From Ulota crispa (Eukaryota; Streptophyta; Bryopsida; Orthotrichales; Orthotrichaceae), in NCBI GenBank assembly GCA_963920765.1, contig OY987247.1, positions 11,256,471 through 11,320,470 of the forward strand: a DNA stretch of 64,000 nt, in the 5' to 3' direction. Below are positions 2,722 to 51,384 of this stretch, in pieces. The notes under the pieces are model-generated. The model had not been told where the DNA came from, did not search any database, and was given only the letters and a program-made list of their open reading frames with translations. How positions within the stretch are numbered: the first letter of the stretch is position 1; every line of letters begins with the position of its first letter. The translations under genes and the position numbers were made by a program.

Positions 2722-2975
2722 GTGAGAGGGTTGCAATTCAAGCACACTACTTTAGGGCTGCTTTACATTAGAAGTTGAGGCTATAAAAACTTGGGGCCAT
2801 TTTGACTTTTGACTTATACACTAGTAGAAAACTCCTTCCAAAACAACAAAAAACCAACAGTTTCTTGTTAATTTGGGCACTTGCCCATGCTAATTGACTA
2901 ATTTAACAGAATTCTGTAAAAAACTAAATACGTTCTGTTGATTTGGATACCATTATCTAAATCAACAGAAATTTT

Positions 2976-3690
2976 GGAATCTTTTGAAGATCTTTTGGGA
3001 ATTTTTGTGAATCTTTAAGAATCTTCAAGAATCTTTTGGGAATCATTGAGAATCTTTTCATGATTTTTAAGAATATTTAAAAATCTTTTTGAGATTTTAG
3101 AATCTTTGAGAATCTTTTAGGAATCCTCATGAATCTTTGGAAATCTTTTGAAATCTTTTCAAGTTTTTTTGGAATCTTACAAAAACTTTGAGAATCTTTG
3201 AGAATCTTTGAGAATCTTTTAGGAATCTTTGAGAATCTTTTGGAATCTTTTGAAATCTTTTCAAGTTTTTTTGGAATCTTTGAGAATGTTTGAGAACAAT
3301 TGAGAATCTTTGAGAATCTTCAAAAATCTTTGAGAATCTTTGAGAATCTTTTTAGAATCTTTGAGAATCTTTTGGAATCTTTGGGAATCTTTTCAATTTT
3401 TTTGGAATCTTTGAGAATGTTTGAGAACAATTGAGAATCTTTCAGAATCTTTTAGGAATCTTTAAGAATCTTTTGGAATCTTTTGGAATCTTCTCAAGTT
3501 TTTTTGGAATCTTTGAGAATGTTTGAGAACAATTGGGAATCTTTGAAAATCTTTGGGAATCTTTTGAGAATCTTTGGAAATCTTTTGAGAATCTTTGGGA
3601 ATCTTTTGAGAATCGTTTTTGAAATTCAAAAAATCTTTGAAAATCTCTAAGAATTTTCAAGAACCTTTTTGGAATCTTTGAGAATCTTTT
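2976..3690 (-). repeat. 10-bp tandem array (AGAATCTTTG) in copy D
   Basis: Reverse-complement form of the CAAAGATTCT array of copy C, with the same higher-order block marked by AGAATGTTTGAGAACAATTG. It is shorter than in C and differs from it in unit order. Confidence 0.85.
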
Positions 3691-4552
3691 TAAAATCTTT
3701 ATGAAATTTGTTAAAGTACTTCAAAATACTTATAGAAATAGAATCTCTTAGACGGAATTACAGTCCTTTAGGAATCTTTTTGTAAATCATCAAAATACTT
3801 TCAAAAAAACTATCACAATAGTTTAGGTTTTTTTTTGAAATCTTTCTAAAATCTTTTTGGACCTCATTAAATTTTTTTGAAGTTTTAAAAAATAAAAGAA
3901 GTTTTCTAAAAAAAAGAATCTTTTAGAAGTTTGAGTGTACATTGATTGGTTTTATTTTCTTTACTTTTCACCTTTTGGTAAGATTTAAAATTAGCAGCCT
4001 TTAAAGTCAAGTAAAAACATGACCATAATAACAAAAAAATTAATAGTTTTCTATTGATCTGGACACTTTTGGACACAACTTCACTAATTCAACAAAATTT
4101 TATATATAAAGTACAACATTTTGTTGTTTTAAATACCAAAATTTCTTTACAAACAAATATAAATGATGCTCCTCAATTCTTTGAAGAAATCATAAATGTC
4201 CCTTAAGGATTAAAAGTACCAAAAAGATCTTTGTGTTACATGATAACCAAGTGTATAGTTTAATGCAAATTCTTACAAGAAACCAAAGGTGATTTTTACA
4301 TTTCAAATAACACAAGGATATATTTAACATTTCAAAATAGAAGCGTTATTTTATTAATTTTCCAAAATAATAGGAGTATAATTGATATTCCTACAAAAAA
4401 TTAGGACTATTTTTTATGTTTTACATATTTTTGGCGTAAACTTGATATTTTGAAAGACTTAAAGGGTGTTTTTAGTAATTTTCCTTCTATTACTAACCAA
4501 ATGAGTTAAAAAAAAACAATCTTATAAAATATTTTTATAAGCTTTAAAAGAT

Positions 4553-4963
4553 GGGAATTGATATGTATACCACACCCTTCCAATTACTATACCACACCAT
4601 GAGGTAAAATTTTAGATTTCTACCATCAAAAAGCTGAATTTGAGAATTTTGAATTCAAATTTGGACTTAGAGACCATGGTATTGTCTAGAACCATAAAAA
4701 AAGTTGCAATTCAACAACTCCCAATGAAAAAGTTTAGTTAGAGAGAAAATTGTTAATTTTACTTTTGTTTGTAAAAAAGATAAGCTTTTCATTGGATGTT
4801 GTTGAATTGCAACTTTTTTTATGGTCCTAGACAATACCATGGTCTCCAAGTCCAAATTTGAATTCAAAATTCTCAAACTCAAATTTTTGATGGTAGAAAT
4901 CTAAAATTTACTCCAAGGGTGTGGTACAATAGTTCAAAGGGTGTGGTTCACATATTAATGCCC
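4553..4963. mobile_element. Foldback MITE nested in copy D
   Basis: Both halves are long inverted repeats. GGGAATTGATATGTATACC at the left pairs with CACATATTAATGCCC at the right, and the arms continue through ACCATGGTATTGTCTAG and its complement. The same foldback sits at the same place in copies A (21283-21693) and B (26042-26453), so it inserted before those copies separated. A relative is nested in an unrelated CACTA element at 53339-53758. Confidence 0.8.
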
Positions 4964-5930
4964 TTAGAGAATATCCAAAACTATTCAAAAGTTAATAGAA
5001 TTTTGATTTTATAATTGCAAGGATTTAATTTTGTAACTTTTCACGACATCATGTTATTTGAAGCTATCAAACTATGGAGGCTATTTTAACAAAATAAGGT
5101 TCTTTTTACAAAAAAGCTAACACTAAATAATAATTATTAATGAATCCAACCTTTGCTTGCAACAATCTTTATGAGATTTGTGAATTCCAAAAAAAATTTA
5201 TAAACAAAATCAAAAGGATGGAAATAAACAATTTATTTAAAATTTCTAAACACATTCTTTAATTTTAGCTCATAACTTTTGATAAAAAGATTGAAATCCA
5301 AAAAAAATTGTTGGAGGTGAAAGAAAAACACATTTACCAACTTTTTTTAGTTCTAAGTTTTTTGAAAAAAAGTTCTTTAATGGGCGGAAATAGCTTCCAA
5401 AGTCTACTGGATTACTAAAGATATGAACATTTAATGTACAAATAGAATCAAGATACCAATGTGTGCATGTGCATTTGCACATTCTCTAATGGTTTTGAGA
5501 ATGTGTTAAGGTTGTGGAGTGTGAGAGGAGAGGTGGAGGGTTCAAACCCCGCTGTCAGCAGCTGCTCGGGAGTTCGAGCAGCTGCCCAAAAAGTTTGGGC
5601 AGCTGCCCATCCCCCTAAAAAGTTCACATTTTTGTAAAATAATAACAAATTCTTTGAAAAAAAAATTTAAAAATGAAAAGAAATAGAACTGAACAACATA
5701 AAATATGTAGTAGAATTCAACAACAAATTATCAGAAAATTGTAAGTAATCAACAGAAAATCAATAGAAACGTACCCAAATCAACTTGACCAAATTCACAG
5801 AAAAAATCAACAGTTTTTGGTTGAAATTTTGTTGATTTTGTGCTGAATTTTCTACTAGTGATAGTTCAGCCCAAACAGCTCCAAGGCTAGCACTAACTAT
5901 TCATTATAATATTACTATATCACTACAAGA

Positions 5931-12743: not shown

Positions 12744-13616
12744 TTCTATACAGTTGTAATTTCTCAAACAGTACTATATTAGCATAAAATATGTCTCTAA
12801 TATAAAATACATATTTTAATGATTGTGCCAAATCTTCGTTACAATTTTCTAAGTGCAACAAACATCCTGTTTTACATGCAACAAACATCCGGTGTACATA
12901 CATATATACACTCATATATATGTATATCAATTTCCTTTCAAGTCTCGCTAACATGGCTCGCTCTCCCACATAACAGCCCTATTCTGCAGATGCTACTATT
13001 GTGATTCTCCCGCTCGACGAAGGGTTAGAGGTCTACACCTCTACTTGAGCTTCCGATTGGTGCTCGGGGAACATAAAAAGACTCAACATACATTATGATG
13101 GTAGTACCCGCTTCGTTTGCATGTTTTCAAGTTCTAGTTGTTTCGAGAATATAAGGAAAAAAGTTCTTCACAGTTCAAACTAATGCATATCTAAATGTGA
13201 CGCTCCGAACGGGCTCCAAAGAAGAGTGCCAGTGTCTCCAATATTGTATAACTTTGATAAGTATGAGAATTACAAGTGAGGAAAGGGGGTGATTGTGGGT
13301 TCCACTTTACCGACTGGTGCAGTACATGGTGTGATCAGCATGATGAGAAATCCGAGGTCAAAAAGCAAGGCGTACAATATGATTAAAAGTACCAACTCAG
13401 AGACGTACCCTTTCGCAGCTTTTGAGCGCCCACCTCGGAAAGCAAAGGTCGAGACAGGACGTAGGTGAACATGATCATTGACCAGCCAATGCGCGCATAA
13501 ACATGAGCACAGCATTGACGTTGCCCACAGCATTATCATAGAATCAGGCATGATCGGGAATCTACTGTCATGAAAGCACTCTACGAGCTGACAATGAACT
13601 CAGACAGAAATTAAGG

Positions 13617-13623
13617 TATTTAA
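13617..13623 (+). promoter_or_regulatory. Candidate TATA box of MTPSL gene 1
   Basis: TATTTAA, in the context AAGGTATTTAA, lies about 210 bases before the ATG. The same context is kept at 42565-42571 before gene 2. Inferred from position and conservation only. Confidence 0.35.
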
Positions 13624-13831
13624 CGAACGTGAAGTTGCAATGCAAAGTGCGGGAACCAGAGTGAGAGAGTCTGAGTACTGTGAGTTGCCAGTAGGAGTGA
13701 AGTGGGCGATGACCTCCAAGTGCTGCGTGCATTGTAGGGCATCAAGGGACTGAGATCTCGTTATCTACGAATTTCGGTTTCTAGACCACACTCTCTCATC
13801 CACGATTCCACGTGTGCAGTGTCTGGTAGCC

Positions 13832-14959
13832 ATGGAGCTGCTGACAGATCAACAATCACCAGCTGGGGGGGTAGTGGCGCCCCCGGACGATGGCCAGCTT
13901 CCACCTTTGCTGTCCATGATCGTAGAAGGCCTGCCGCCAATGCGCCAGTCCAAGTACGTTCACGAGGCAGAAAGGGCCCTGCATCGATACGCGGAGCGCA
14001 ACGGGAACATCCGTTCCTTTGGCGAGTACTGTTGTGCAGGCCTTTCATCTGCTAGCTATTTGCACTGCGGAGTAATCAGCGTGGACCGCCTCGTAGCAAT
14101 CTCCTCTTATTATGCTATTGCGTTCTTGTTGGATGATGTCTTCTTTGACGACACAGGCAACCGAGACGATGTTTTTCTGGACCAGTACGGCATCGACCGC
14201 ACTGCTCGTGAAAGTCCCCAGAAAACGCAAGAATATCTCGATCATCTGACCTCGGTTTTCGCTCAACAGCAGCGGCTACGCAGTACTGCCACCTTGATTG
14301 AGACCATTTTGTGGGAGTTGGGCAGGGACATGTTGTCGTTGTCCAACCCAGAATGGTTCAACGCCTACGTTGAGAGCCTCGACGAACACTACCGCACATG
14401 TGCTACCAGCCATGCTGATATCCTTGCAGGCCACAACAAATGCTTCGAAGAGTTGGATGCTTACACCGTCATGCGCGACGGCGACGTTGGTGGCAAGTTC
14501 ATTCAGTTGGTGGCCGAGTTTGCCAGCAATATGTACATTCCAAAAGCACTGAGATCAGATCCGTTCTTACACAAACTAATTACTGCAGCCTCCATCCATA
14601 TAGGATTTGCAAACGACATCTTCTCGTATCACAAGGAGAGCTCGCGAGAAGGGAATCCTCGCAACCTGATCACAGTGCTCATGAAATGCGAACGGCAGTC
14701 CTTTCCCCACACTGTGCGCCGAGCAATAAAGCTCGTGAACGAGTATGCTCGCACCATCGTAGATATGGAGTCAGAAGCTTGGAACCCAGCTTTGCTGAAT
14801 CACTTGCAGGAGATCAAAGCACTCATTGCAGGCAACATATACTTTAGTTGCATGGACAAGCGCTATCGGCAAGCTGATTCAGTGTTTCCTGAACTGAGAG
14901 ACACTACATCCAGTTGGAAGATAGTTCCTCTTCCTCCTTCAGGAGTTGCAGCTGCGTGA
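13832..14959 (+). CDS. Microbial-type terpene synthase (MTPSL), copy 1
   Basis: Class I terpene synthase of 375 residues, expected to ionise a prenyl diphosphate (most likely farnesyl or geranyl diphosphate) and cyclise it to a terpene. The first metal-binding motif DDVFFD lies at residues 101-106. The second, NDIFSYHKE, lies at 261-269 and fits NDxxSxxxE exactly. The RY pair at 344-345 sits about 80 residues later, as in bacterial and fungal enzymes. It is a single alpha domain in one exon, with no DXDD class II motif and no obvious transit peptide, so a cytosolic enzyme is likely. The start is the first ATG in frame (MELLTD); an upstream in-frame GTG at 13814 is not a plausible plant start. 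Plant MTPSLs are thought to descend from microbial genes acquired by transfer. Product unknown. A second copy lies about 29 kb downstream. Confidence 0.92.
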   Translation: MELLTDQQSPAGGVVAPPDDGQLPPLLSMIVEGLPPMRQSKYVHEAERALHRYAERNGNIRSFGEYCCAGLSSASYLHCGVISVDRLVAISSYYAIAFLLDDVFFDDTGNRDDVFLDQYGIDRTARESPQKTQEYLDHLTSVFAQQQRLRSTATLIETILWELGRDMLSLSNPEWFNAYVESLDEHYRTCATSHADILAGHNKCFEELDAYTVMRDGDVGGKFIQLVAEFASNMYIPKALRSDPFLHKLITAASIHIGFANDIFSYHKESSREGNPRNLITVLMKCERQSFPHTVRRAIKLVNEYARTIVDMESEAWNPALLNHLQEIKALIAGNIYFSCMDKRYRQADSVFPELRDTTSSWKIVPLPPSGVAAA

Positions 14960-15135
14960 TTTACTTCTCACGCAGGTGCCACAGTAATTAATGTCCATCG
15001 ATCTGATTCCAGAGCACCGAGAGTCGAACTACCTCAGAGGCTCAGACAGATAGTATGCCTAGTAATATTATAGTGCTAAATCTTTACTGTGGTACCAGGG
15101 ATGAGTGAGCAGATATGTTTAGTGGAAGAGGAGCC
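14546..15135 (+). repeat. 590-bp identity tract shared by the two MTPSL genes
   Basis: This tract covers the last 138 codons or so (from about ALRSDPF) and 176 bases of 3' UTR. It reads identically at 43493-44082, with no gap and no mismatch that I can find. Sequence on both sides differs clearly. Confidence 0.9.
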
Positions 15136-15314
15136 CATTCAAGTAGGTTTCTTCTGGTGCTGTTAACACCGACTTCACGACTTGTTGTGATTTGTGAAGA
15201 GGTGATTGTGGAACCTTCTCTGCCCTGCATACAGACTAAGCCTTTGAGCTCAAGCAACAGGGTAAGCAGCACCATAGCCGATGGGTGCACTGCGAATGAT
15301 GTGAATGATGTAAC

Positions 15315-15320
15315 AATAAA
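15315..15320 (+). promoter_or_regulatory. Candidate polyadenylation signal of MTPSL gene 1
   Basis: AATAAA lies 356 bases after the stop codon. It is outside the shared tract, and gene 2 lacks it because its flank changes at about 44131. Plant signals are loose, so this is tentative. Confidence 0.3.
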
Positions 15321-16270
15321 AGCTCTACACTTCCTTTCCTCCATGGTTGTCACATTGGACCAACTCTAAACCGGCAAACCTCCAAAGCAAACACAAACAC
15401 AAACAAGGCAAAAACTTTAGCACTTGTATTTTACTTTTTGTTTTTTAAGTGTGGGCATGGACTCAATCTTGCAACTGTGCTTTGACATCTGCACTCCAAT
15501 TTCAATATGGACAACCACCTCATCAAGTCTAGTCTGTCTCTTGTCTTGTTCAACAACTAAGGCTTACCCGATGCAACAACCATGCTTTTCTCCATTTCAT
15601 ATATTTTATAGCAACAATCCTAAGAAGAACAACACATCCATTTGCATTGCCATCAATGCCATGTTGTCTTTCATGTGCTATTGAAAAGTACTTGATGGTT
15701 GATGCTTATCATAAGAGAAAAAGACTCACTATTTCTTGTGCAAAGTTGTCTCACTACAAGCTAATGACCAAAAAGAAATCTCTAGTTCATTTAGAGGGTA
15801 GGATTGTTGTATAATGTAGGGGGTTTGAGGACTTTAGGATCCTTGAGTTGAACAAGAAAAGTTGTGTAAATTGGAATGATAGATTCTTTATCCTCAAAAT
15901 TCATCCATTTTCATGTACTACTTTACATACAATAGTACTTACTTATCCAACATTGTGGCAAAAGAAAAAAGACAATATCTCTGTAGGCATTGCCTTCTAC
16001 CTTCCTCAAAGAGCTTTCTTTGCAAAACATGACCATACTCATAACTGATTTCTTCAGCAATTACGGTAACATGTTGCTCAAAGATTAGCTCTTGGAAGAG
16101 GAGTTCATAAGCGATACTCAGCAAGGAAAAACAATTGTGAATAATTCAAAAACAAAAAGCAATTATGAGATGCCAACTAAGTAACATTGTGACATTTCCA
16201 AGGATGTAACTCATCCATAGGTGAAGTCTTCATGATGTGTCACTTAGTGATTGGCTTTTTTAGGTCAAAA
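15321..16270. other. Nothing recognised
   Basis: Short frames on both strands show no motif that I recognise. No clear repeat is seen. Confidence 0.4.
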
Positions 16271-16527
16271 AACACCATATTCATGAAAATGGGAGATTTC
16301 CACTAAATTGAGAGGTAACTAAAAGGAAATTCAATAAAAGGTTTAATTGCAGTTTAGCTCAACTCAAGCGAAATTGCAATGCAACTTTTCAAAATTGACC
16401 TAAAATTAGAAGGTTTTATGTCAATTCAACTAAAATTTCTTCCTTTAATAGAAATTGCTGATCAAGTTGAGATCAACATGGTTATTTTGAGAGGTGCCCA
16501 ATCTCCCATTTTAATGAATATGGTGTT
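16271..16527. mobile_element. AACACCATAT-family MITE with AAAA duplication
   Basis: The left end AACACCATATTCATGAAAAT pairs with the right end ATTTTAATGAATATGGTGTT. AAAA lies on both sides. The interior carries AAGGTTTTATGTCAATTCAA. Same subfamily as 10543-10802. Confidence 0.85.
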
Positions 16528-17334
16528 AAAACCAGTTATGTTTGGTATTTGTTTTCTTAAAACCAATCATCAATGCACAGCTAGCTCTGCTGTTTGGGGC
16601 TGGTTGTGCACTAATGACCAATTCTAAGAAAACAATCACCTAATAGATAAAACTCACTTGCTAAGCTCCAAGATTGTAATTTTACTCATTGTTTTCTTCT
16701 AAATGCCCTTTAGATTGGTTGTGACTTGGAATCTAATAAAACACGCAATACTTGTGTCTAATTATCTATACTAGCATGACATAGAGTGCCATAATTGATT
16801 CCACAAACCTGTGGAAAATCAAATCAATTTAAATTGTGGTTCATGACTTCAAGGACGCACAACTTGAATTAGGTTTTTTTGTGAACATTAGTCACTCAAA
16901 CTACGATTGAAGTTTCAATTATTATTTTTGAATTCCCTTGAGTTTGCTTGTCTTCTTGCAAGTAAACAATGCAGATTAAGAAAATTGTAGAGAACAATTT
17001 TATCATCATTTACTCTCCCTTAATTGAAAAAAGTCACGTTCATCCAATTCAATAAATTATATATCAAAATAGAGTTAGCTGCTCTTCACTTTACGGTTCA
17101 GAGTGGAATTAGTTTGTACTTCTTTTTAATCTTGAGATTGCAAGCTTCATCCACTTGAATGAAATATAGGTCCTCATCCAATAGGTTTTTGTTGATTAGG
17201 AAAAACCATTTAATTTTGTTTGTGCTTATCTTTATTCCAAGAGTTGCGCTTAATTCTTTTCTAACAGTTTACAAATCATAATTTTGTCATTTTCAAGGAC
17301 ATGCTTGAACTCCTTTTGTGTACTTAAAATGACA
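16528..17334. other. Nothing recognised
   Basis: AT-rich sequence without a supported gene or repeat. Confidence 0.4.
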
Positions 17335-17765
17335 GGGAAATTGCAAATAGGGGCATGAAAACGTAAAATATTACAGATAGGGGTGTAGTTTCAAAATAAT
17401 TACAAATAGGGGCACAATTTCAAAAAAATTTGTGATTTTTTGTGAACTTTTTAGTTTGGACATTTGTTGATTCAGATACATCTCATTAAATCCTAGTTAA
17501 CCTCCAAAAAATTTAATAATTTCTAAAAATTGCATCCTCTTTACTAAAATTTCTTTATTTAGGCTTGATTTGGACGAGACCTTTAACTTTTTTAGAAATT
17601 AGTTAACATTTAATGTGATGTGCCTACATCAACTATTGTCCAAACTAAAAAGAATTTACAAAATATCACAATTTTTTTCAAATTGTGCCCTTATTTGTAA
17701 TTATTTTGAAACTGCGCCCCTATTTGTAATATTTTATGTTTTCATGCCCCTAAATGAAATTTCCC
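17335..17765. mobile_element. Foldback element with about 125-base arms
   Basis: The left arm, with AAATAGGGGCATGAAAACG and ACAAATAGGGGCACAATTT, pairs with the right arm AAATTGTGCCCTTATTTGT and TTTTCATGCCCCTAAATG. Each arm contains three NNAGGGGYR units in series. A relative lies at 36575-37170. Confidence 0.75.
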
Positions 17766-19160
17766 CTAAAATAAACCATAATGAATGAACTACAAAATAC
17801 AAAAGTACCATCTTGTACTCCTACTTAATCAAAAAATAAACACCTTAATCCAATTTAGTGAAAAACATGCTCATATAATACAAGATAAATTGAGAAAAAG
17901 TCAAATTTGAGACTTTTCAATGTTTTGGCTCATATATCCACACGTTAGTGCTATTCAATAAATTCTCATAATATCTTCTTTATAACTTCCCATCATTTAC
18001 AAGTCTTAGCTTTAATAACAACCCCCACAATTAGTATATAGCAAACTCAAATAGTATGATCTAGCTAACACAAATACACAATGTCACATTCCACTTTTTA
18101 TACATACATATGCATTTGGGCAAAGATAATTGTATAAAACATTATATCAAAATTAATGGTCCACATACATAAGCTTCTAAAATGCAACTTCATCCAAGGT
18201 CCCTTGTTTTGTTAAAAAATGCTTGGAAAATCTTTTGTTATAATATTGAACATCCTTGCCTTTCAACAGCCATGGCAAAGAATTCAAAAAACAACCATCA
18301 TCTGACAACTTCTTTATGAGGTAGTTTGTATGTTGAAGGATCTCAAATATTGCAATGGTCTTGCTTTTCCAATAATCTTCACAAGGATCCCAAAACACTA
18401 ATTTTTGGTGCAAATCAAGAGATTCTAATGTCATTAATGCTAAACAATTTTATTTAGTAAATGTGATATGTAAGTCATTTACTTCTACAAAACCAAATTA
18501 AAGAGATTACCTCAGTTTTTCCATTTGGAAATAAAATGATTCCTAAAACTGAAATCCTTTGAAGTAGATATTTTTTCTACTCTTCTTTTTGGAAGAGAGA
18601 AATTACACTATGAAATTTATGCTACTACACAATAACATTATTTGTTACAAGTTTTATAATGTTTTACATGCCCTTCTCTTGCAATACATGTGCTTTAGCA
18701 ACTTCTTTGCTTTAGCAACTTCTTTGCTTTTGCTATTTGATCCTTGAATGGCAAGCGTCTATGCCATTGTCATTTCTATTAGAAGTGAAATCAACAATCG
18801 CAAATTTTCCGCCGTGTTCAACTATTGTTGCTTGCAAAGTGTAAATTATACACTTTATTTTTGGATCAAACTCTAGTTGGTTGTTCAAACAAGTATTTCC
18901 AAATCCATTGCATTTTTCTTGTCTGCAACCACCTTCATCACTTCATGGTGCTTGTTATGTTGACTTGCAAAAGGTAACTTTATCCATACCCAAGCGATGA
19001 AGGGTTAAGGGTACTACAAGGTCTCAACAAATTTAGGGAAAAAAATTGTAGGGTTAGCCTTTCAACAAGCACAAGCTACCATAGAACGTCATTTTTGTGG
19101 AAAAAAGTATTGTAGAATATTTTGTATTCAAGGACAAAGTTGCAACTCATAGGGTTCCTA
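17766..19160. other. No supported gene
   Basis: An 85-codon minus-strand frame at 18177-18434 is not recognised. A 17-bp direct repeat (CTTTAGCAACTTCTTTG, twice) lies near 18690-18728. Confidence 0.35.
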
Positions 19161-19315
19161 CACTAGTAGAAAGCTCCTTCCAAAACAATAGAAAACCAAC
19201 AGTTTCTTGTTGATTTGGGCACTTGCCCACGCTAATTGACTAATTTAACAGAATTTTGTAAAAAACTAAAAACGTTCTGTTGATTTGGACACCATTATCT
19301 AAATCAACAAAAATT

Positions 19316-20400
19316 TTGGAATCTTTTGAGGATCTTTTGGGAATATTTTGTAAATCTTTAAGAATCTTCAAGAATCTTTTGGGAGTCATTGAGAATTTTT
19401 TCAGGATTTTTAAGAATATTTAAAAATCTTTTTGAGATTTTAGAATCTTAGAGAATCTTTCAAGAATCTTCATGAATCTATAGAAATCTTTTAGACTCTT
19501 TTCAAGTTTTTTTTTAAATCTTTGAGAATGTTTGAGAACAATTGAGAATCTTTGAGAATCTTTGAGAATCTTTGAGAATCTTTGAGAATCTTTGAGGATC
19601 TTTTGGAATCTTCAGAAATCTTCTCAAGTTTTTTTGGAATCTTCAAGAATGTTTGAGAACAATTGAGAATCTTTGAGAATCTTTGAGAAACTTTGAGAAT
19701 CTTTTAGGAATCTTCATGAATCTTTAGAAATCTTTCAGAATCTTTTCAAGCTTTTTTGGAATCTTTGAGAATGTTTGAGAACAATTGAGAATCTTTGAGA
19801 ATCTTTGAGAATCTTTGAGAATCTTTGAGAATCTTTTTAGAATCTTTGAGAATCTTTTCAAGTTTTTTTGGAATCTTTGAGAATGTTTGAGAAAAATTAA
19901 AAATCCTTGAAAATCTTTGAGAATCTTTGAGAATCTTTTTAGAATCTCTTGGAATCTTTTGGAATATTTTCAAGTTTTTTGGAATCTTTGAGAATGTCTG
20001 AGAACAATTGAGAATCTTTGAAAATCTTTGAGAATCTTTTGGAAATCTTTGAGAATCTTTTGGAATCTTTAGAAATCTTTTCAAATATTTTTGGAATCTT
20101 TGAGAATGTTTGAGAACAATTGAGAATCTTTGAGAATCTTTGAGAATCTTTAAAAATCTCTTTGGAATCTTCAAGAATCTTTAAAAATCTTTGAGAATCT
20201 TTGAGAATCTTTTAGGAATCTTTGAGAATCATTTGGAATCTTTGAGAATCTTTTCAAGTATTTTGGAATCTTTGAGAAGCCTTGAGAATCTTTAACAATC
20301 TTTGGGAATCTTTGGAAATCTTTTGAGAATCTTTTTTGAAATTCAAAAAATCTTTAAAAATCTCTAAGAATTTTCAAGAACCTTTTTGGAATCTTTGAAA
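19316..20400 (-). repeat. 10-bp tandem array in copy A
   Basis: AGAATCTTTG units with the AGAATGTTTGAGAACAATTG higher-order block recurring about every 100-150 bases. Long open frames on it are artefacts of the unit. Confidence 0.85.
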
Positions 20401-21282
20401 ATCTTTTTAAAACCTTTATGAAATTTGTTAAAGTACTTCAAAATATTTATAGAAATAGAATCTCTTAGACTGAATTAGAGTCCTTTAGGAATCTTTTTGT
20501 AATTCATCAAAATACTTTAAAATATTTTTAACAAAAAAATTATCACAATAGTTTAGGTTTGTTTTTGAAATCTTTCTAAAATCTTTTTGGACCTCATTAA
20601 ATTTTTTTGAAGTTTTAAAAAATAAAAGAAGTTTTCAAAAAAAAAGAATCTTTTAGAGGTTTGAGTGCACATTGACTGGTTTTATTTTCTTTACTTTTCA
20701 CCTTTTGGTAAGATTTAAAATTAGCAACCTTTAAAGTCAAGTAAAAACATGACCATAATAACAGAAAAATTAATAGTTTTCTGTTGATCTGGACACTTTT
20801 GGACACAACTTCACTAATTCAACAAAATTTTATATATAAAGTACAACATTTTGTTGTTTTAAATACCAAAATTTCTTTACAAACAAATGTAAATGATGCT
20901 CCTCAATTCTTTGAAGAAATCATATATGTCCCTTAAGGATTAAAAGTACCAAAAAGATCTTTGTGTTACATGATAACCAAGTGTATAGTTTAATGCAAAT
21001 TCTTACAAGAAACCAAAGGTGATTTTTACATTTCAAATAACACAAGGATATATTTAACATTTCAAAATAGAAGAGTTTTTTTATTAGTTTTCCAAAATAA
21101 CAGGAGTATAATTGATATTCCTACAAAAAATAAAGACTATTTTTTATGTTTCACATATTTTTGGCGTAAACTTGATATTTTGAAAGACTTAAAGGGTATT
21201 TTTAGTATTTTTCCTTCTATTACTAATCAAATGAGTTAAAAAAAAACAATCTTATAAAATATTTTTAAAAACTTTAAAAGAT

Positions 21283-21693
21283 GGGAATTGATATGTGTAC
21301 CACACCCTTCCAATTACTATACCACACCACAAGGTAAATTTTAGATTTTTATCATCAAAAAGTTGAATTTGAGAATTTTGAATTCAGATTTGGACTTAGA
21401 GACCATGGTATTGTCTAGAACCATAAAAAAAGTTGCAATTCAACAACATCCAACAAAAAAGTTTAGTTAGGGAGAAAATTGTTAATTTTACTTCTGTTTG
21501 TAAAAAAAAATAAGCTTTTTCATTGGGTGTTGTTGAATTGCAACCTTTTTTATGGTCCTAGACAATACCATGGTCTCCAAGTCCAAATTTGAATTCAAAA
21601 TTCTCAAACTCAAATTTTTGATGGTAGAAATCTAAAATTTATCCCGAGAGTGTGGTATAGTAGTTCAAAGGATGTGATTCACATATTAATGCC
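21283..21693. mobile_element. Foldback MITE nested in copy A
   Basis: Same foldback as in copies B and D. Left GGGAATTGATATGTGTACC pairs with right CACATATTAATGCCC. The arms include ACCATGGTATTGTCTAG and its complement. Confidence 0.8.
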
Positions 21694-22769
21694 CTTAAAA
21701 AATATCCAAAACTATTCAAAAGTCTATAGAATTTTGATTTTATAATTGCAAGGATTTAATTTTGTAACTTTTCACGACATCATGTTATTTGAAGCTATCA
21801 AACTATGGAGGCTATTTTAACAAAATAAGGTTCTTTTTACAAAAAAACTAGCACTAAATAATAATTATTAATGAATCCAACCTTTGCTTGCAACAATCTT
21901 TATGAGATTTGTGAATTCCAAAAAAAATTTATAAACAAAATCAAAAGGATGGAAATAAACAATTTGTTTAAAATTTCTAAATACCTTCTTTGATTTTAGC
22001 TCATAACTTTTGATAAAAAGATTGAAATCCAAAAAAATTGTTGGAGGTGAAAGTAAAATACATTTACCAACTTTTTTTAGTACTAAGTTTTTTGAAAAAA
22101 AGTTCTTTAATGGGTAGAAATAGCCTCCAAAATCTACTGGATTACTAAAAACATGAACATTTAATGTACAAATAGAATCAAGATACCAATGTGTGCATGT
22201 GCATTTGCACATTCTCTAGTGATTTTGAGAATGTGCAAAAGTTGTGGAGTGTGAGAGAAGAGGTGGAGAGTTCAAACCCCACTACCAGCAGCTGCCCAGG
22301 GGCTTGGGCAGCTGCCCGTCCCCTAAAAAGTTCACATTTTCGTAAAATAAAAACAAATTCTATGAAAAAAAAAATTGAAAATTGAAAAGAAACAGAATTG
22401 AACAACATAAAATATGTAATAGAAATCAACAACAAATTAATAGAAAATTGTAAATAATCAATAGAAAATTAACAAAAAAGTATTCAAATCAATTTGATCA
22501 AATTCACAGAGAAAATCAACAATTTTTGGTTGAAATTCTGTTGATTTTGTGCTGAATTTTCTACTAGTGCAGAGAAGCAGTGATAAAGGAGATATTCGTC
22601 GGCTAGGTTATTGGCCTACTCAAGAATCTTCCGCAAGTCCGCTAGCGCTTGCTAAAGGAAATCTCTATATAAATATATCTATAGATTTCATTTAGCATGA
22701 ATTGATAAAACAGAATTGCAGTTCTTTTCGGATCAGCCTACTCTACAGCAAATTAGTGTAAAAAAAGTG

Positions 22770-23384
22770 CATGCAAGGAATCGCATAAACACTGTTATAC
22801 TTTAAGTGTGCTGGCGGCTAAGAACAGTAAAGACAAAAAAAATATATATATATTTTTATGCATGGAAGCAAATTACCCAAAGTAATGGGGACAGAGAACT
22901 AAACGACATCTCAAGCGCTATAGCTCACAGGTGTTATAGGCGAGATCCAACCATACACTATGATTTGAGTTGGAAGTCAGAGGATCCATAGTACCTGCTT
23001 GATCCTAAAAGAATTGTGTAAATCGGAAACTTGTGGATTGAATAAAAGGCAAAGGGGTCTATGCACCTGCCTAGTTTGGCAGGTTTTATTCTTCAAAACT
23101 CAAAAAAGAAAACGGCAAATACATCTATTTTTTATTGCACCCTATTAACATCAAGATGTTAATACATTATATATGATGATACATCCAATGCCATTAATAA
23201 TCCAATGAGTAGCCGGGAAGGGCAGGCACCCAACAAGCCGCAGTCAATGGAGCCCGTCTCCTATGAGTTCAATTTAAATCAAGAGAGTTAATGAGCAGTA
23301 TGATGGGAGATTATCACGTATGGTTCGGAGAGCACTTAGAAGGCAGGAGTTAATCATAACTTCCTACCAAAGTTTGACTCTATC
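22770..23384 (+). other. Group II intron remnant in sdh3 (first intron)
   Basis: Starts around GTGCATGCAAGGAATCGC. Domain V is visible at about 23293-23332: GAGCAGTATGATGGGAGATT, then a GTATGGTTCGG return strand. Compared with the usual GAGCCGTATG...GTACGGTTC, the catalytic AGC is kept. It is followed by the sdh3 exon with MVFCSILFLKIG. The 5' end is approximate, and no maturase is seen. Confidence 0.6.
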
Positions 23385-23940
23385 CATTATGGTTTTTTGT
23401 AGTATTCTTTTCTTAAAAATAGGCAATTTTAACCTTACTTTTATTATCTTTACTAGTACGTTTTTTTCTTCACTTTCTATTTCTATTGGTCGATCTTAAG
23501 CGTAATCAATTTCAATTTATTGGCTTTGTGCTATCATATGAGTAATGGAATTTGTCATTTATTGTGGATTTAGGTTTTTTTCTAAAATTATCCAAAGTAT
23601 ATACTTCCGGAATTATTATGTTATTCTGTGCAACTTTTCTAGCTGTATTGAATATTATCCAATTCTATTTCTCATAAACGCGAAATACAATAACCCCAAA
23701 AAAAAGGTCTATATATATATAGACTTTTTTCCCTGATAGCTCAGCAATGCCTCGGAATCATATCTACTTTATCTTGCAAAGGTTTAATTAAGACAAGCCT
23801 ACAATCTGTACTATTTTGGCCGATAGGATACTTTTTAGATAGGCAGAGCCGTATGATGGGCAATTGTCACATACGCTTCTACAAGAAGGGGCCAGACCAA
23901 AAAGGCCAGTTTCCTTTTATTCTCAAAGAAAAGGTAAAAA
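23384..23940 (+). pseudogene. sdh3: sdh3 remnant (succinate dehydrogenase subunit 3, mitochondrial copy)
   Basis: Translations MVFCSILFLKIGNFNLTFI, then LALCYHMSNGICHLLW, then ATFLAVLNIIQ match the middle and end of plant mitochondrial Sdh3. This is the membrane cytochrome b subunit of complex II; the liverwort protein reads LATMVLFSILFFKIG and LLALCYHMSNGVRHLLWD. A second, shortened group II intron follows, and the last codons (GQFPF) appear near 23905, just before sdh4. The frame is broken. Exon 1 is not convincingly visible. It is a nuclear copy of organelle DNA and not expected to be expressed. Confidence 0.7.
23665..23895 (+). other. Second group II intron remnant in sdh3, domain V
   Basis: Domain V lies at about 23846-23880: GAGCCGTATGATGGGCAATT with the return strand CACATACGCTTCT. 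Only about 230 bases separate the flanking exon pieces, so most of the intron is missing. Confidence 0.6.
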
Positions 23941-23943
23941 GCA

Positions 23944-24200
23944 ATGAAAGCTCATAAAGAAACCTTGGGGCATTGGCTTCTTCAAAGAATGACTGCCGCT
24001 TCTCTAATTCCAACCATTTTTATATCAAATGTTTCTACTTTGATTCTGTTAAATATATTGTTATTCTGGCATATTCATGTGGAAATTGAAGAAATTCTAA
24101 TAGATTATGTTCACCATGAAATAACACAAAATTGGATCTTGATTCTTTTCAGAGTAATTTGTTTAATAATTATCAAATATGTTTGCTTGTGCATGCACTA
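23944..24200 (+). pseudogene. sdh4: sdh4 copy (succinate dehydrogenase subunit 4, mitochondrial origin)
   Basis: The frame starts [20 protein letters not shown] and continues with [19 protein letters not shown] and [10 protein letters not shown]. This is the small membrane anchor of complex II as encoded in early land plant mitochondria, which normally read HVGIEEIL and a basic residue before NW. The G-to-E and R-to-Q changes are each a G-to-A step. Similarity runs to about residue 84; after that the frame continues 28 codons into unrelated sequence, so the natural C terminus is lost. It overlaps the end of sdh3 closely, as in the organelle. Confidence 0.8.
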
Positions 24201-25166
24201 TTTTAGAACCTCAAGAGAGTGTTCTGAGCTATCACCAAGTGTGCTTATTGTCATGATTGTGTTCAGATTTGTCTTTTATTAAAATATAGATACATCATAC
24301 TAAAATAAATGAAAACTTGTTCTCAATCATCATTTGAGTATTAGAATATGGAATGGGTGCTTGCACACTTCAAGAGCCTTATTGGAGCATTCTTGGCTTT
24401 GTAGTGGTTGCTTTTAGAACTCATGTGTTCCCTTTACAAATTGCTTTTGAATCATGAGTGCTACCACCTATGATCAAGAATAGCTATCTACGCACCTTTT
24501 GCTTTGATAAATTGTAGCTAATTCATAGTAACTCAAAAAAGTTCAAATTAAATGGCCATAGAACTATCTCTTCTTTGGCTTTCAACCAAAAATATTTCCA
24601 AGTTGCTAAACTAGCTTGATTTTTGAATAAATGTCATCTTTCCCTTAGATGGTTGGTTTACAAGCCTCCTACCTTATATGCATGTATGAAAGTTGACACC
24701 AACAAGCCAAAATACAACATTAATCCTTGAATGGCCCATTGGCCATCTTTGGTTGTATGTACGGCCGTAATTGAGCTGCTATGAGGGCTTTCCAAAAATA
24801 ATTGTGCACCACCATTGTACAATCCATTAATATATATGGTTGTAACACTTAATTTCTAACTAATTCAAACTTCTAAATACTGGTTGCTACTGTATTTGGT
24901 ACCATATCTCTAGAGCCCAAGGGCCCTTCAAGGCTTAAAGTAACCCTCTCCATACTTGAGCGGAAGTGAATTCCTTACCCTACGTTTGAGGTGTTCACCA
25001 CACAATGTTGAATTTGTAGTAGAGTAGTGAACGCTACTTGCACAAGCAAATCTTGCCACATGTCAATTGCTAAGTTGGTTTGGGAGGTTTGGAATTAGAA
25101 CTATTAAGTGCCATTATAGGAACACATCTAAGTAGTTTCAAGGTTAGGGTCTAGAGTCACTTTTAG
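24201..25166. other. Nuclear DNA, nothing recognised
   Basis: No mitochondrial similarity, gene or clear repeat is seen between the sdh4 breakpoint and copy B. Confidence 0.4.
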
Positions 25167-26041
25167 CACTAGTAGTAAATTTAGCACAAAATCAACAGAA
25201 TTTCAACCAAAAATTGTTGATTTTCTCTGTGAATTTGATCAAATTGATTTGAATACTTTTTTGTTAATTTTCTATTGATTATTTACAATTTTCTATTAAT
25301 TTGTTGTTGATTTCTATTACATATTTTATGTTGTTCAATTCTGTTTCTTTTCAATTTTCAATTTTTTTTTTCATAGAATTTGTTTTTATTTTACGAAAAT
25401 GTGAACTTTTTAGGGGACGGGCAGCTGCCCAAGCCCCTGGGCAGCTGCTGGTAGTGGGGTTTGAACTCTCCACCTCTTCTCTCACACTCCACAACTTTTG
25501 CACATTCTCAAAATCACTAGAGAATGTGCAAATGCACATGCACACATTGGTATCTTGATTCTATTTGTACATTAAATGTTCATGTTTTTAGTAATCCAGT
25601 AGATTTTGGAGGCTATTTCTACCCATTAAAGAACTTTTTTTCAAAAAACTTAGTACTAAAAAAAGTTGGTAAATGTATTTTACTTTCACCTCCAACAATT
25701 TTTTTGGATTTCAATCTTTTTATCAAAAGTTATGAGCTAAAATCAAAGAAGGTATTTAGAAATTTTAAACAAATTGTTTATTTCCATCCTTTTGATTTTG
25801 TTTATAAATTTTTTTTGGAATTCACAAATCTCATAAAGATTGTTGCAAGCAAAGGTTGGATTCATTAATAATTATTATTTAGTGCTAGTTTTTTTGTAAA
25901 AAGAACCTTATTTTGTTAAAATAGCCTCCATAGTTTGATAGCTTCAAATAACATGATGTCGTGAAAAGTTACAAAATTAAATCCTTGCAATTATAAAATC
26001 AAAATTCTATAGACTTTTGAATAGTTTTGGATATTTTTTAA

Positions 26042-26453
26042 GGGCATTAATATGTGAATCACATCCTTTGAACTACTATACCACACTCTCGGGATAAATT
26101 TTAGATTTCTACCATCAAAAATTTGAGTTTGAGAATTTTGAATTCAAATTTGGACTTGGAGACCATGGTATTGTCTAGGACCATAAAAAAGGTTGCAATT
26201 CAACAACACCCAATGAAAAAGCTTATTTTTTTTTACAAACAGAAGTAAAATTAACAATTTTCTCCCTAACTAAACTTTTTTGTTGGATGTTGTTGAATTG
26301 CAACTTTTTTTATGGTTCTAGACAATACCATGGTCTCTAAGTCCAAATCTGAATTCAAAATTCTCAAATTCAACTTTTTGATGATAAAAATCTAAAATTT
26401 ACCTTGTGGTGTGGTATAGTAATTGGAAGGGTGTGGTACACATATCAATTCCC
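26042..26453. mobile_element. Foldback MITE nested in copy B
   Basis: Left GGGCATTAATATGTG pairs with right CACATATCAATTCCC. Identical in content to the foldback in copy A. Confidence 0.8.
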
Positions 26454-27329
26454 ATCTTTTAAAGTTTTTAAAAATATTTTATAAGATTGTTTTTTTTTAA
26501 CTCATTTGATTAGTAATAGAAGGAAAAATACTAAAAATACCCTTTAAGTCTTTCAAAATATCAAGTTTACGCCAAAAATATGTGAAACATAAAAAATAGT
26601 CTTTATTTTTTGTAGGAATATCAATTATACTCCTGTTATTTTGGAAAACTAATAAAAAAACTCTTCTATTTTGAAATGTTAAATATATCCTTGTGTTATT
26701 TGAAATGTAAAAATCACCTTTGGTTTCTTGTAAGAATTTGCATTAAACTATACACTTGGTTATCATGTAACACAAAGATCTTTTTGGTACTTTTAATCCT
26801 TAAGGGACATATATGATTTCTTCAAAGAATTGAGGAGCATCATTTACATTTGTTTGTAAAGAAATTTTGGTATTTAAAACAACAAAATGTTGTACTTTAT
26901 ATATAAAATTTTGTTGAATTAGTGAAGTTGTGTCCAAAAGTGTCCAGATCAACAGAAAACTATTAATTTTTCTGTTATTATGGTCATGTTTTTACTTGAC
27001 TTTAAAGGTTGCTAATTTTAAATCTTACCAAAAGGTGAAAAGTAAAGAAAATAAAACCAGTCAATGTGCACTCAAACCTCTAAAAGATTCTTTTTTTTTG
27101 AAAACTTCTTTTATTTTTTAAAACTTCAAAAAAATTTAATGAGGTCCAAAAAGATTTTAGAAAGATTTCAAAAACAAACCTAAACTATTGTGATAATTTT
27201 TTTGTTAAAAATATTTTAAAGTATTTTGATGAATTACAAAAAGATTCCTAAAGGACTCTAATTCAGTCTAAGAGATTCTATTTCTATAAATATTTTGAAG
27301 TACTTTAACAAATTTCATAAAGGTTTTAA

Positions 27330-28130
27330 AAAGATTTTCAAAGATTCCAAAAAGGTTCTTGAAAATTCTTAGAGATTTTTAAAGATTTTTTGAATTTCAA
27401 AAAAGATTCTCAAAAGATTTCCAAAGATTCCCAAAGATTGTTAAAGATTCTCAAGGCTTCTCAAAGATTCCAAAATACTTGAAAAGATTCTCAAAGATTC
27501 CAAATGATTCTCAAAGATTCCTAAAAGATTCTCAAAGATTCTCAAAGATTTTTAAAGATTCTTGAAGATTCCAAAGAGATTTTTAAAGATTCTCAAAGAT
27601 TCTCAAAGATTCTCAATTGTTCTCAAACATTCTCAAAGATTCCAAAAATATTTGAAAAGATTTCTAAAGATTCCAAAAGATTCTCAAAGATTTCCAAAAG
27701 ATTCTCAAAGATTTTCAAAGATTCTCAATTGTTCTCAGACATTCTCAAAGATTCCAAAAAACTTGAAAATATTCCAAAAGATTCCAAGAGATTCTAAAAA
27801 GATTCTCAAAGATTCTCAAAGATTTTCAAGGATTTTTAATTTTTCTCAAACATTCTCAAAGATTCCAAAAAAACTTGAAAAGATTCTCAAAGATTCTAAA
27901 AAGATTCTCAAAGATTCTCAAAGATTCTCAAAGATTCTCAATTGTTCTCAAACATTCTCAAAGATTCCAAAAAAGCTTGAAAAGATTCTGAAAGATTTCT
28001 AAAGATTCATGAAGATTCCTAAAAGATTCTCAAAGATTCTAAAATCTCAAAAAGATTCTTAAATAATCTTAAAAATCCTGAAAAGATTTTCAATGATTCC
28101 CAAAAGATTCTTGAAGATTCTTAAAGATTC
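27330..28130 (+). repeat. 10-bp tandem array in copy B
   Basis: CAAAGATTCT units matching copy A up to about 28010. Beyond that point it lacks a block of about 250 bases present in A and then diverges. Confidence 0.85.
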
Positions 28131-28670
28131 ACAAAAAATTCCCAAATTATCTTCAAAAGATTCCAAAATTTTTGTTGATTTAGATAATGGCGTCCAAATC
28201 AACAGAACGTATTTAGTTTTTTACAGAATTCTGTTAAATTAGTCAATTAGCGTGGGCAAGTGCCCAAATCAACAAGAAACTGTTGGTTTTCTGTTGTTTT
28301 GGAAGGAGTTTTCTACTAGTGTTATGATATCTATATATTTTGGTCCAGTGCACTGTGGCGCGTTTTGCAACATGGCTCAATGTTGCGCCTTGAGCTAAGC
28401 CACAATACGATACGTGCTGTCCCGCTGAGTAAAAATCTCCTCAAGCTCTTCAGGGTACTGCCCTATTTTCTGGCTACCAAGCACAGAGCCACCAGTTCAA
28501 GATCATTACTTTTTCTTGAATGAATCATCATAAATAATGATTATTATTTTTTTTCATAAAGAGATTATCTTGTTTTTTGCTTGATTCTGCAAAATAATTA
28601 CACAACATTAAGATCTGTAAAGGTTACATGCTATTTTGTTTTAAAAAAGGTTAACTAATTACCCTACTTA

Positions 28671-32586: not shown

Positions 32587-33200
32587 TAATGTTTATATGT
32601 CTATATGTTTGTATGTCCATATGACCATGTCTATGCAATTGATTTGCAAAGACAAAGATTGGGCTCTTTTTTAACTGTTGTAGTGTATTACAAGGATAAC
32701 CAAATGTACTACCTTGCAAATTCGCCAAAAGTAAATAGTTAAATCTACATATACTTGTTAACTTCTCAATCAAAGCAACTTCTGAGTATGATCTCAAGGT
32801 ATTAACGGATTAAAACTATTGCTAAAATTGGTCATGACGTAGCTTTGAATATCATTATGGAGGCTGTTGGTGCTAATTAATAATTTCAAACAATTCTCAA
32901 ATTCAACAAGAAAAAAAGTGCAACAATGTAAATTCATGGATTATACTAAAAGACTAAAAATCGTTGCCTCATTGCTTAGATAAAAAAATTGGACAAGGTG
33001 AGTTTGCTTCCAACCCTCAAACTTCACAGTTTGTAAATTCTGTATATTAGGTCTTAGCCCCTGACCATAGTAACAAAAGAAATTTGACTTGTTAGAAAGA
33101 CAACATCCTTGAGCAAGAATCAAAGATATCTATAGTTTCATTACGGACCTCTCTCAATAATTCATAAAGATTGCTCCACTTGAAGTAAATCACTTTGGCT
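32587..33200. other. Nothing recognised
   Basis: Short frames only. Confidence 0.35.
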
Positions 33201-34170
33201 AAACCCTAAGTTTGCCGCATAGCAAAAAAATTGGTGCAGACCACAGAGGGAGAACAATGAAAAAGTTTAGATAACAAAGCAAAAGAAACAAGAAAATGCC
33301 AAAAACAATGTATCATAATGATGCAACCCTGATTGCACTCACATGCACTAACCTCTAGGGAGAGCAACCTTGTGAATACAAGATTGTACAATACTTTGCC
33401 GCTTTGCATCCAAGGCTTTGTTGTCGATTGGTGGAGCTTTGCCGTCACTCTTCTCAATCTCTACTGCAAAGAAAGGCCTCCGCATCCTCCTGCAATGATA
33501 ATTCAGAAGACGTTCTAGTTTGAGATCCTGTAACAATTCTCCAAAATATCCGGGTTTTACTGAACTCCAGGCTCCACTTGCAACTATGCTTCCCTTCCTC
33601 TTTAATTTCACACATCTTACATGACCAAAGATCAAAGTGCACGTTATTAATTTGTTTGATTTCAGCTTATTAAAAGCATTATCTCTGTTGGGTAGCCATA
33701 GCAGCACCCACAAATACCAATTGACATGCGTTGCACAAAATAATCGAAAAAGGAAAACTGCACTCACACAATTGAAGATGCTTACAGTCGGTACCCTTGA
33801 CCATAGCCGTGTTCATATCAATGCAACCTGCAGTGATAGGGCCTTGTTAAGACCGCTGCATCACGCTCAATGACGCTGATAAGAGTCCACATATCAATGT
33901 CAATGAGATTGTACAGAGTGGTGCATGCTTGCCATGTAGCAGGACTGGTTCATTTCCTGGAGAAATGGGAACATCATGAAGTCGGATCCATCAGCACAAA
34001 GCGTATTGACACAGTTTGAGAAGCTGCCTTGAAACATGGCTTTGAACTTGTGTGATAGGACCCTTTTCGTGCCAAGTTTTGGCAGATTCGAATGTAGTGG
34101 TGAAAACATGAGTGTAGCCTTGATCATAGTTGTCACGTTAGATCGCTCGTCTATTCGCTTGCCCACACGC
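33200..34170 (-). pseudogene. Possible scraps of a protein gene, minus strand (unrecognised)
   Basis: Two minus-strand stretches look coding by their balanced composition. One includes PFFAVEIEKSDGKAPPIDNK at about 33410-33490. The other includes [20 protein letters not shown] at about 33850-33910. They lie in different frames with stops between them. I do not recognise the protein. They may be separate exons or debris. Confidence 0.3.
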
Positions 34171-42571: not shown

Positions 42572-42784
42572 GGAACGGTGATGTTGCTAACGCAAGGTGC
42601 ATGAAGTAGAGTGTGAGAATCTGCGAGCTCAGAATAGGAGTGAAGAGGGCGATGTATCCCAAGTGTTGCTTGCATTGTATGGCATCAAGGGATTGAGATC
42701 TCGTGGTCTTTGATTTCTGTTTCCAGATTGATCTCTTTCTCTCATCCAGATCATACGCATCCAGATACGCTGTGTACGGTGGCC

Positions 42785-43906
42785 ATGGCGATGTCGACGG
42801 ATCCAATATCAACAGACGTAGAAGCGTCCAAGGACGATGGCCAGCTTCCACCCTTGCTGTCCATGATCGTACAAGGCCTGCCGCCAATGCACCAGTCCAA
42901 GTACGTTCACAAGGCAGAAAAGGCCATGTTTCGGTACGTGGAGAGCAACGGGAACATCCGTTCCTTTGGCGACTGCTGTCGTGTAGGCCTTTCATCTGCT
43001 AGCTATGGGCACTGCGGAGTAATCAGCGTGGACCGCCTCGTAGCAATCTCCTCTTATTATGCATTCGCGTTCCTGCTGGATGATGTCTTCTTCGACGACA
43101 CCGATAACCGAGACGATGTTTTTCTGGACCAGTATGACATCGACCGCACTGCTCGTGAGAGCCCCCAGAAAACGCAAGAGTATCTCGATCATCTGACCTC
43201 TGTTTTCGCTCAACAGCAGCCGCCACGCAGTCCTGCCACCTTAATTGAGACCATGATGTGCGAGTTGGGCAGGGACATGTTGTCGTTGTCCAACCCAGAA
43301 TGGTTCAGCGCCTTCGTGGAGAGCCTCGACGACCACTACCGCACATGTGCTACCATCCATGCTGATATCCTTGCAGGCCACAACTTATGCATCCAAGATT
43401 TGGAGGCTTTTACCGTCATGCGTGGTGGCGACATTGGTGGCAAGTTCATTCAGTTGCTGGTTGAGTTTGCCAGCAACACGTACCTTCCAAGTGCACTGAG
43501 ATCAGATCCGTTCTTACACAAACTAATTACTGCAGCCTCCATCCATATAGGATTTGCAAACGACATCTTCTCGTATCACAAGGAGAGCTCGCGAGAAGGG
43601 AATCCTCGCAACCTGATCACAGTGCTCATGAAATGCGAACGGCAGTCCTTTCCCCACACTGTGCGCCGAGCAATAAAGCTCGTGAACGAGTATGCTCGCA
43701 CCATCGTAGATATGGAGTCAGAAGCTTGGAACCCAGCTTTGCTGAATCACTTGCAGGAGATCAAAGCACTCATTGCAGGCAACATATACTTTAGTTGCAT
43801 GGACAAGCGCTATCGGCAAGCTGATTCAGTGTTTCCTGAACTGAGAGACACTACATCCAGTTGGAAGATAGTTCCTCTTCCTCCTTCAGGAGTTGCAGCT
43901 GCGTGA
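42785..43906 (+). CDS. Microbial-type terpene synthase (MTPSL), copy 2
   Basis: Class I terpene synthase of 373 residues, in one exon. DDVFFD lies at residues 99-104, NDIFSYHKE at 259-267 and the RY pair at 342-343, so all metal- and diphosphate-binding signatures are intact. The first 230 residues or so differ from copy 1 at about 39 positions, among them GNRDD/DNRDD beside the first motif and WELGRD/CELGRD; the remaining 138 residues are identical. The start is taken at MAMSTDP, the first ATG in frame; a TTG-initiated extension to 42710 is not credible. No transit peptide is evident. Substrate and product are unknown; differences in the amino half could change the product. The 3' flank is cut by a TTAA element 228 bases after the stop, so its polyadenylation site must differ from copy 1. 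Confidence 0.92.
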   Translation: MAMSTDPISTDVEASKDDGQLPPLLSMIVQGLPPMHQSKYVHKAEKAMFRYVESNGNIRSFGDCCRVGLSSASYGHCGVISVDRLVAISSYYAFAFLLDDVFFDDTDNRDDVFLDQYDIDRTARESPQKTQEYLDHLTSVFAQQQPPRSPATLIETMMCELGRDMLSLSNPEWFSAFVESLDDHYRTCATIHADILAGHNLCIQDLEAFTVMRGGDIGGKFIQLLVEFASNTYLPSALRSDPFLHKLITAASIHIGFANDIFSYHKESSREGNPRNLITVLMKCERQSFPHTVRRAIKLVNEYARTIVDMESEAWNPALLNHLQEIKALIAGNIYFSCMDKRYRQADSVFPELRDTTSSWKIVPLPPSGVAAA

Positions 43907-44082
43907 TTTACTTCTCACGCAGGTGCCACAGTAATTAATGTCCATCGATCTGATTCCAGAGCACCGAGAGTCGAACTACCTCAGAGGCTCAGACAGATAG
44001 TATGCCTAGTAATATTATAGTGCTAAATCTTTACTGTGGTACCAGGGATGAGTGAGCAGATATGTTTAGTGGAAGAGGAGCC
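43493..44082 (+). repeat. 590-bp identity tract shared with MTPSL gene 1
   Basis: Partner of 14546-15135, with no mismatch seen. Upstream codons and the bases after 44082 differ from copy 1. Confidence 0.9.
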
Positions 44083-51112: not shown

Positions 51113-51384
51113 CACCATATTTGTTATAATGAGAGAATGGAGACCTCTCAAAATAAATTTGTTGAATTTGACCAAAATCACCAATTTCCATTAAAATGAG
51201 AGTTTTTAGCTGGATTGACATAAAACTTTTCAATTTTAGGTTGAATTTCACCATATTTGTTATAATGAGAGAATGGAGACCTCTCAAAATAAATTTGTTG
51301 ATTTTGACCAAAATCACCAATTTCCATTAAAATGAGAGTTTTTAGCTGGATTGACATAAAACCTTTCAATTTTAGGTTGAATTT
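51113..51384. repeat. 136-bp tandem duplication
   Basis: Two near-identical units, both starting CACCATATTTGTTATAATG and ending in GGTTGAATTT. They differ at only a few bases. Confidence 0.85.

Follow-up and report, generated by a model that had tools for sequence, protein, structure and literature searches.

Gene conversion is expected in clustered plant genes. Like some clustered families such as the coffee SH3 disease-resistance genes, in which paralogues swap tracts and genes become mosaic (available text of PMC3113787), the array described here contains neighbouring paralogues that appear to exchange tracts. It differs from the coffee case in that the genes are terpene synthases, the lineage is another one and the material is one genome assembly. 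For clustered terpene synthases, unequal crossing over and gene conversion have been discussed in the grapevine VvTPS cluster (available text of PMC3017849). In Solanum habrochaites, relatives of TPS20 carry a segment derived from TPS18, for which gene conversion is one of two proposed causes, the other being altered splicing; the accessible part of that paper calls for the genomic loci (PMC3466413). The tomato case resembles gene A below in that a donor segment lies inside a paralogue. In contrast to the grapevine and tomato cases, as far as their available texts go, both genomic loci, both edges of the tract and at least 10 further copies are known here.

A cluster of fungal-type MTPSL genes on chromosome 6 of Marchantia polymorpha (Mp6g04580-Mp6g04630) has been linked to symptom severity. 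That family has 13 members, structural variation and flanking transposon remnants, and its expansion was attributed to transposons (available text of PMC12890914). The array in Ulota crispa resembles it in kind, with strong structural variation and at least 12 members compared with 13, and it lies mainly on a contig that is here numbered 6. Unlike the reading given below, the accessible portion of the Marchantia paper does not mention gene conversion (PMC12890914). A search of literature mostly outside subscription journals found no report that joins MTPSL, Marchantia and gene conversion.

We analysed a window of 64,000 nucleotides from one assembly of U. crispa, and window coordinates are used throughout unless a contig is named. 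Our main reading, to which we give a probability of roughly 0.85, is that a recent interlocus gene conversion took place between two members of the array, most likely from gene B (42785-43906) into gene A (13832-14959). The case is a new, well-resolved example of a known process, seen in unusually clear detail. Beyond the initial annotation, which had noticed the identity between the two genes, the analysis adds a direction and a mosaic of five segments, and both edges are resolved by third copies.

Two terpene synthase genes and their identical tract

Gene A (13832-14959, plus strand) is an intronless frame of 375 residues without an internal stop, and gene B (42785-43906, plus strand) has 373 residues from its first ATG. 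Both scored above the cut-off for Pfam Terpene_syn_C_2, gene A with an E value of 3.2e-24 and gene B with 2.2e-24 over 42779-43906, which places them by sequence in the class I terpene synthase family. A search against PDB sequences gave 32 matches with E up to 0.01, fungal and bacterial terpene synthases among them (best E 7.6e-07). Gene A is thus a putative terpene synthase of the microbial or fungal type, MTPSL-like by its sequence. Both proteins contain the aspartate-rich motif, as LLDDVFFDD (residues 99-107), and the NDxxSxxxE motif, as NDIFSYHKE (residues 261-269). The first is the same in A and B despite its position outside the tract.

The tract at 14546-15135 in gene A (plus strand) is identical to that at 43493-44082 in gene B (plus strand) at 590 of 590 bases, as the initial annotation had read it. 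The longest exact run through these positions is 590 bases and cannot be extended by a single base at either end. In gene A the tract opens exactly with codon 239 and runs through the stop codon, which ends at 14959, into 176 bases of 3' flank. With 0 differences at 590 sites, the 95% upper limit of A/B divergence is about 0.5% (rule of three).

Outside the tract the two genes are clearly divergent. Directly upstream of the gene, at 13400-13831, A/B identity is 67-74% by window, which bears out the diverged 5' flanks of the earlier description. It is 82-92% in the five coding windows preceding the tract (85.5% in the adjoining one), 100% inside it and 54% beyond it. The first A/B mismatch on the 3' side is 15136. 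From there the alignment of the two goes on for about 45 bases (to 15177/44131 by BLAST), interrupted by mismatches and an indel of 7 bases, and then homology ends. The edges had been called abrupt. Both sides do return to divergence, and on the 3' side the description is refined by this short alignable stretch. Divergent homologous sequence therefore stands on both sides of an identical tract, which is the pattern that marks gene conversion. Gene conversion or unequal exchange across 29 kb had both been proposed; conversion is supported, but exchange alone is insufficient, because it leaves identity running on to one side and here both sides are divergent.

Residue changes between A and B before the tract affect 39 of 220 codons (13886-14545), close to the one residue in six first estimated. 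Counted without gaps, 52 of the first 230 residues differ; this exceeds that figure owing to the poor alignment of the first 18 residues. As measured over 219 codons (13886-14543), dS was 0.162 and dN was 0.087 before the tract, compared with dS 0 and dN 0 over the 132 codons (91 silent sites) within it. Nor did silent divergence slope gradually towards the edge: it went from dS 0.19 at 14403-14543 to 0 in the tract. Silent and non-coding sites have been homogenised, and not amino acids alone, with 0 of the 176 non-coding bases differing.

Such identity might in principle come from strong purifying selection acting over the C-terminal half and the 3' flank, and for most copy pairs dN is indeed lower in the 3' part. 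Against this, A and B are without change at 91 silent sites and 176 non-coding bases, dS in the same region is 0.09-0.90 in all 65 other pairs among the 66 copy pairs, A/B being the only pair with 0, and copies C and D differ from A and B there by 6-18%. The tract is not due to protein constraint, because dS between A and B falls from 0.162 upstream to 0 over 91 silent sites. We consider the chance of this explanation negligible and rejected constraint as the cause, since silent and non-coding sites are unchanged.

Chance was assessed by permutation of polymorphic sites. The A/B run covered 256 of 567 sites, and 0 of 2,000 shuffles were as extreme; the same count of 0 in 2,000 was obtained in each of four tests that differed in copies and range. 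The combinatorial bound was 2e-14 for the 567-site set and ranged from 2e-14 to 7e-29 across the four sets. Because of gaps, one test was run without H, another on A-D alone, with eight copies dropped, and the last without H, J and G. Neither chance nor protein constraint accounts for the A/B tract. Among the other pairs, the nine-copy test (13600-15250) gave global P values of 0.11 for the A/D run and 0.62 for the A/C run, neither significant, and both runs were significant in the four-copy test. In the twelve-copy test an A/H run at 14404-14463 was borderline (P 0.057), and the runs outside A/B were C/H (0.009), F/H (0.016) and E/G (0.036). C and H lie about 195 kb apart on opposite strands, and their common run comprises 42 polymorphic sites in the region matching 14420-14489 (global P 0.009).

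Copies of the family were sought in the assembly (274.8 Mb, 157 contigs) with the A protein and two N-terminal DNA halves, which found at least 12 terpene synthase copies. Contig 6 carries D, A, B and C (11.24-11.32 Mb), H and I on the opposite strand (11.52 Mb), and G, F and E (11.66-11.71 Mb); J is on contig 7, and contig 5 carries K and M. Stop codons inside the aligned stretch occur in four of the 12 copies (C, D, E and I), although in C the frame stays open until a 4-base insertion close to its very end, and H matches from residue 53 onward only. The starts of D, A and B on contig 6 (11241293, 11270302 and 11299249) are spaced by 29,009 and 28,947 bases, nearly equal despite unlike inserts in the two intervals, possibly by coincidence. 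K and M each have a decayed second copy of the 3' half after the gene, and that of M starts at the match to 14558, near the 5' edge of the tract. Because of their long frames, K and M had been considered to carry a 3' half duplicated in frame, which was ruled out, the second piece being decayed by indels.

A search of the same genome with the tract itself gave at least 17 matching pieces. Only two of them, in A and B, were 100% identical, and the next best was 87%. These searches score the best candidates only, so that weaker copies of the tract may escape. As far as the search reaches, an unseen third donor was rejected; the search for donors recommended at the outset thus leaves A and B as the only copies above 87%.

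Mosaic structure of gene A and the probable source of the tract

At least five segments make up gene A, a mosaic along which the nearest copy changes in the order D-B-C-B-D. In separate trees of the five segments, the splits joining A to these copies had bootstrap supports of 100, 99, 96, 100 and 100%; the tree of the first segment held 9 of the 12 copies and that of the fifth 11 of the 12.

The first segment (13400-13950, plus strand) comprises the upstream flank and the start of the gene and is 85-90% identical to D. In three windows A/D identity is 84.6, 89.6 and 87.6%, and E also reaches 87.6% in the last. Here 30 of 37 quartet-informative sites support AD|BC, and 35 of 54 sites that A has in common with one other copy join it to D. 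The second segment (13951-14403, plus strand) is B-like at 91-92% identity, that is, about 9% divergent. Its quartet sites support AB|CD at 23 of 25, and 9 of the 11 A bases common to one other copy are those of B. This A/B relation is older than the tract. The third segment is a short C-like patch (14404-14566, plus strand), with 97% identity to C over 14401-14545; at 14404-14545, 9 of 10 quartet sites support AC|BD and both of the A bases common to one other copy are found in C. It is the weakest of the five, being short and having H also close to A, next at 92%. In the tract A is nearest to B (100%), all 38 quartet sites at 14546-15113 support AB|CD, and each of the 17 A bases at 14567-15113 common to exactly one of the 11 other copies is shared with B. 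From 15136 A is nearest to D (98-100%). The single quartet site at 15136-15181 joins A to D, B is not alignable beyond, and at 15136-15400 each of the 35 bases that A shares with a single copy out of the 11 others is that of D. This D-like downstream flank (15114-19160, plus strand) consists of three collinear pieces with 94-97% identity to D, and in 15114-15488 there are 2 differences in 375 bases.

Each edge of the A/B tract falls within the same 21 or 22 bases as a change in the relation of A to a third copy. On the 5' side A changes from C-type to B-type at 14546-14566 (plus strand), inside which A, B and C agree, the last A/C site being 14545 and the first A/B site 14567. On the 3' side it changes from B-type to D-type at 15114-15135 (plus strand), where the last A/D mismatch before the interval is 15113, the next is 15184 and the first A/B mismatch is 15136. 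C and D are sisters within the tract region (99% split), and each of them is the nearest copy of A on one side of the tract.

These edges bear on the direction of copying. Identity alone gives none, and conversion in reverse, with A as donor and B as recipient, would be compatible with a tract that ends about 45 bases before B loses homology to the family, where the structure of B could set the 3' edge. Copying from A into B would leave two coincidences unexplained: the C-to-B switch of A falls together with one tract edge within 21 bases, and the B-to-D switch with the other within 22. It is also at odds with the sister relation of C and D in the tract, each of which flanks the tract of A. 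The former 3' half of A was probably C/D-like, because C and D adjoin the tract in A and are sisters within it. The sequence of B before the tract gave no independent sign of the history of B. Copying from B into A is favoured because the outer parts of A are D-type on both sides and its switches coincide with both tract edges; since the edges match the C and D switches within 21 and 22 bases, it explains them in one step. In this comparison of copies from a single genome, B is probably the donor and A the recipient, and we regard the reverse direction as having a small chance.

The description of A as a D-type locus rests on two A/D relations of unlike age. The left one, at 85-90%, is much older, and the right one shows 2 differences in 375 bases next to the tract. 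The right-hand A/D flank and the tract are inseparable in age (2/375 compared with 0/590), and both could derive from a single complex event. This leads to another account, in which A is a chimera formed by unequal crossing over or segmental duplication, with B on the left and the flank of D on the right joined at 15114-15135 and the left end of the B part overwritten later. It fits the near identity of A to D right of the junction, whose two sides cannot be told apart in age. It also fits the downstream region of D, which is collinear with that of A as far as 36634, so a tandem duplication of the D flank occurred. Identity in the collinear pieces is 94-99.8% as far as 35522 and 83-93% in the final two, which reach 36634, and A has large inserts relative to D. 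The date of this duplication of the D flank is left at some earlier time. A simple crossover, however, predicts that A equals B over the whole gene and the upstream flank. Observed identity is only 82-92% in the coding part and 67-74% upstream, where D is nearest. Identity to one parent along one whole side of a single junction is not seen, for A/B identity stops on the left after 590 bases. A single unequal crossover was rejected on the same ground, A upstream of 14546 differing from the sequence of B. The second switch at 14546-14566 would be needed anyway and would again be conversion. We judge the chimera improbable, even more so than copying from A into B.

A still lower probability is given to an artefact of assembly, polishing or collapsed copies. 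The assembly is in 157 contigs, which leaves some room for one. The arguments against it are that the copies have unlike flanks on one contig of 22.9 Mb and that 590 bases are short compared with long reads. An assembler mixing copies that are 9-15% divergent is also unlikely to switch twice at intervals of 21-22 bases just where other copies match A.

Several other features of the window were observed. The stretch at 32592-34046 is 99.8% identical to the downstream region of D (3 mismatches in 1,455 bases), its neighbours being 94-97% identical, and it may mark a further recent exchange. An inverted repeat at 19692-22570 and 25166-28044 has arms of 2,879 bases that are 99% complementary, with 2,595 bases between them. 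An inner piece at 24173-25166 matches the flank of D in reverse, as would result from an inversion by recombination between the arms. Related to this inverted repeat (19692-28044) are repeats at 1-1445 and 2817-5860. Within the repeat elements, TTTGAGAATC or its complement is the 10-base unit of long arrays at 423-1291, 2972-3690, 19315-20408 and 27328-28168. Elsewhere in the window, at 51113-51384, a 136-base unit is present in two tandem copies that are 98-99% alike.

The order of events that we infer from the mosaic is as follows. Gene A would originally have been a D-type locus, copy D lying 29 kb on the other side, and its interior would have been overwritten. B would have overwritten A at least once at an earlier time, at 13951-14403, which has since diverged by about 9%, and a short C-type patch (14404-14566) would have been written into A. 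In the most recent step B would have been copied into A again: damage to the 3' half of A, either a break or a nick, may have been repaired from the B template about 29 kb away. The copied tract would extend from 14546-14566 to 15114-15135, that is, 547 to 590 bases. Published interlocus conversion tracts are given as '50 to several hundred bp' in the available text of PMC3924818, and the length here is within that range or at its upper end.

Consequences for the enzymes and the cluster

The consequence is two intact frames with unlike N-terminal halves and a common C-terminal half. As first described, the common half bears the NDxxSxxxE motif, which binds metal: the tract begins at codon 239, and the C-terminal 137 residues common to A and B include NDIFSYHKE at 261-269. 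In class I terpene synthases a diphosphate-sensing arginine lies 46 residues before the NSE motif, with an effector residue nearby. R215, common to A and B, is presumably the candidate sensor arginine, whereas at position 219 A has V and B has I. If this register holds, the metal site is common to A and B and the specificity region is not. The tract may also have an effect on the enzyme products.

Recurrent exchange in the array may also join N- and C-terminal halves preferentially at one switch zone around codons 239-245, generating new enzyme combinations and explaining part of the haplotype variation at such loci. We give this a low probability. Three hints point to such a zone: A switches there, C and D become mutual nearest copies from about the same place, and the decayed half of M starts at the match to 14558.

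If the main reading is right, the copies of the array are not independent lineages, and a whole-gene tree would misplace A because its segments have unlike nearest relatives. Short-read genotyping would be misled by such tracts, in a setting where a related cluster associates with disease symptoms (available text of PMC12890914). A and B form a natural enzyme pair with a common C-terminal half and unlike N-terminal halves, suited to the question of which half determines the product. Gene conversion would then be a mechanism, besides transposon activity, for the diversity of such a cluster.
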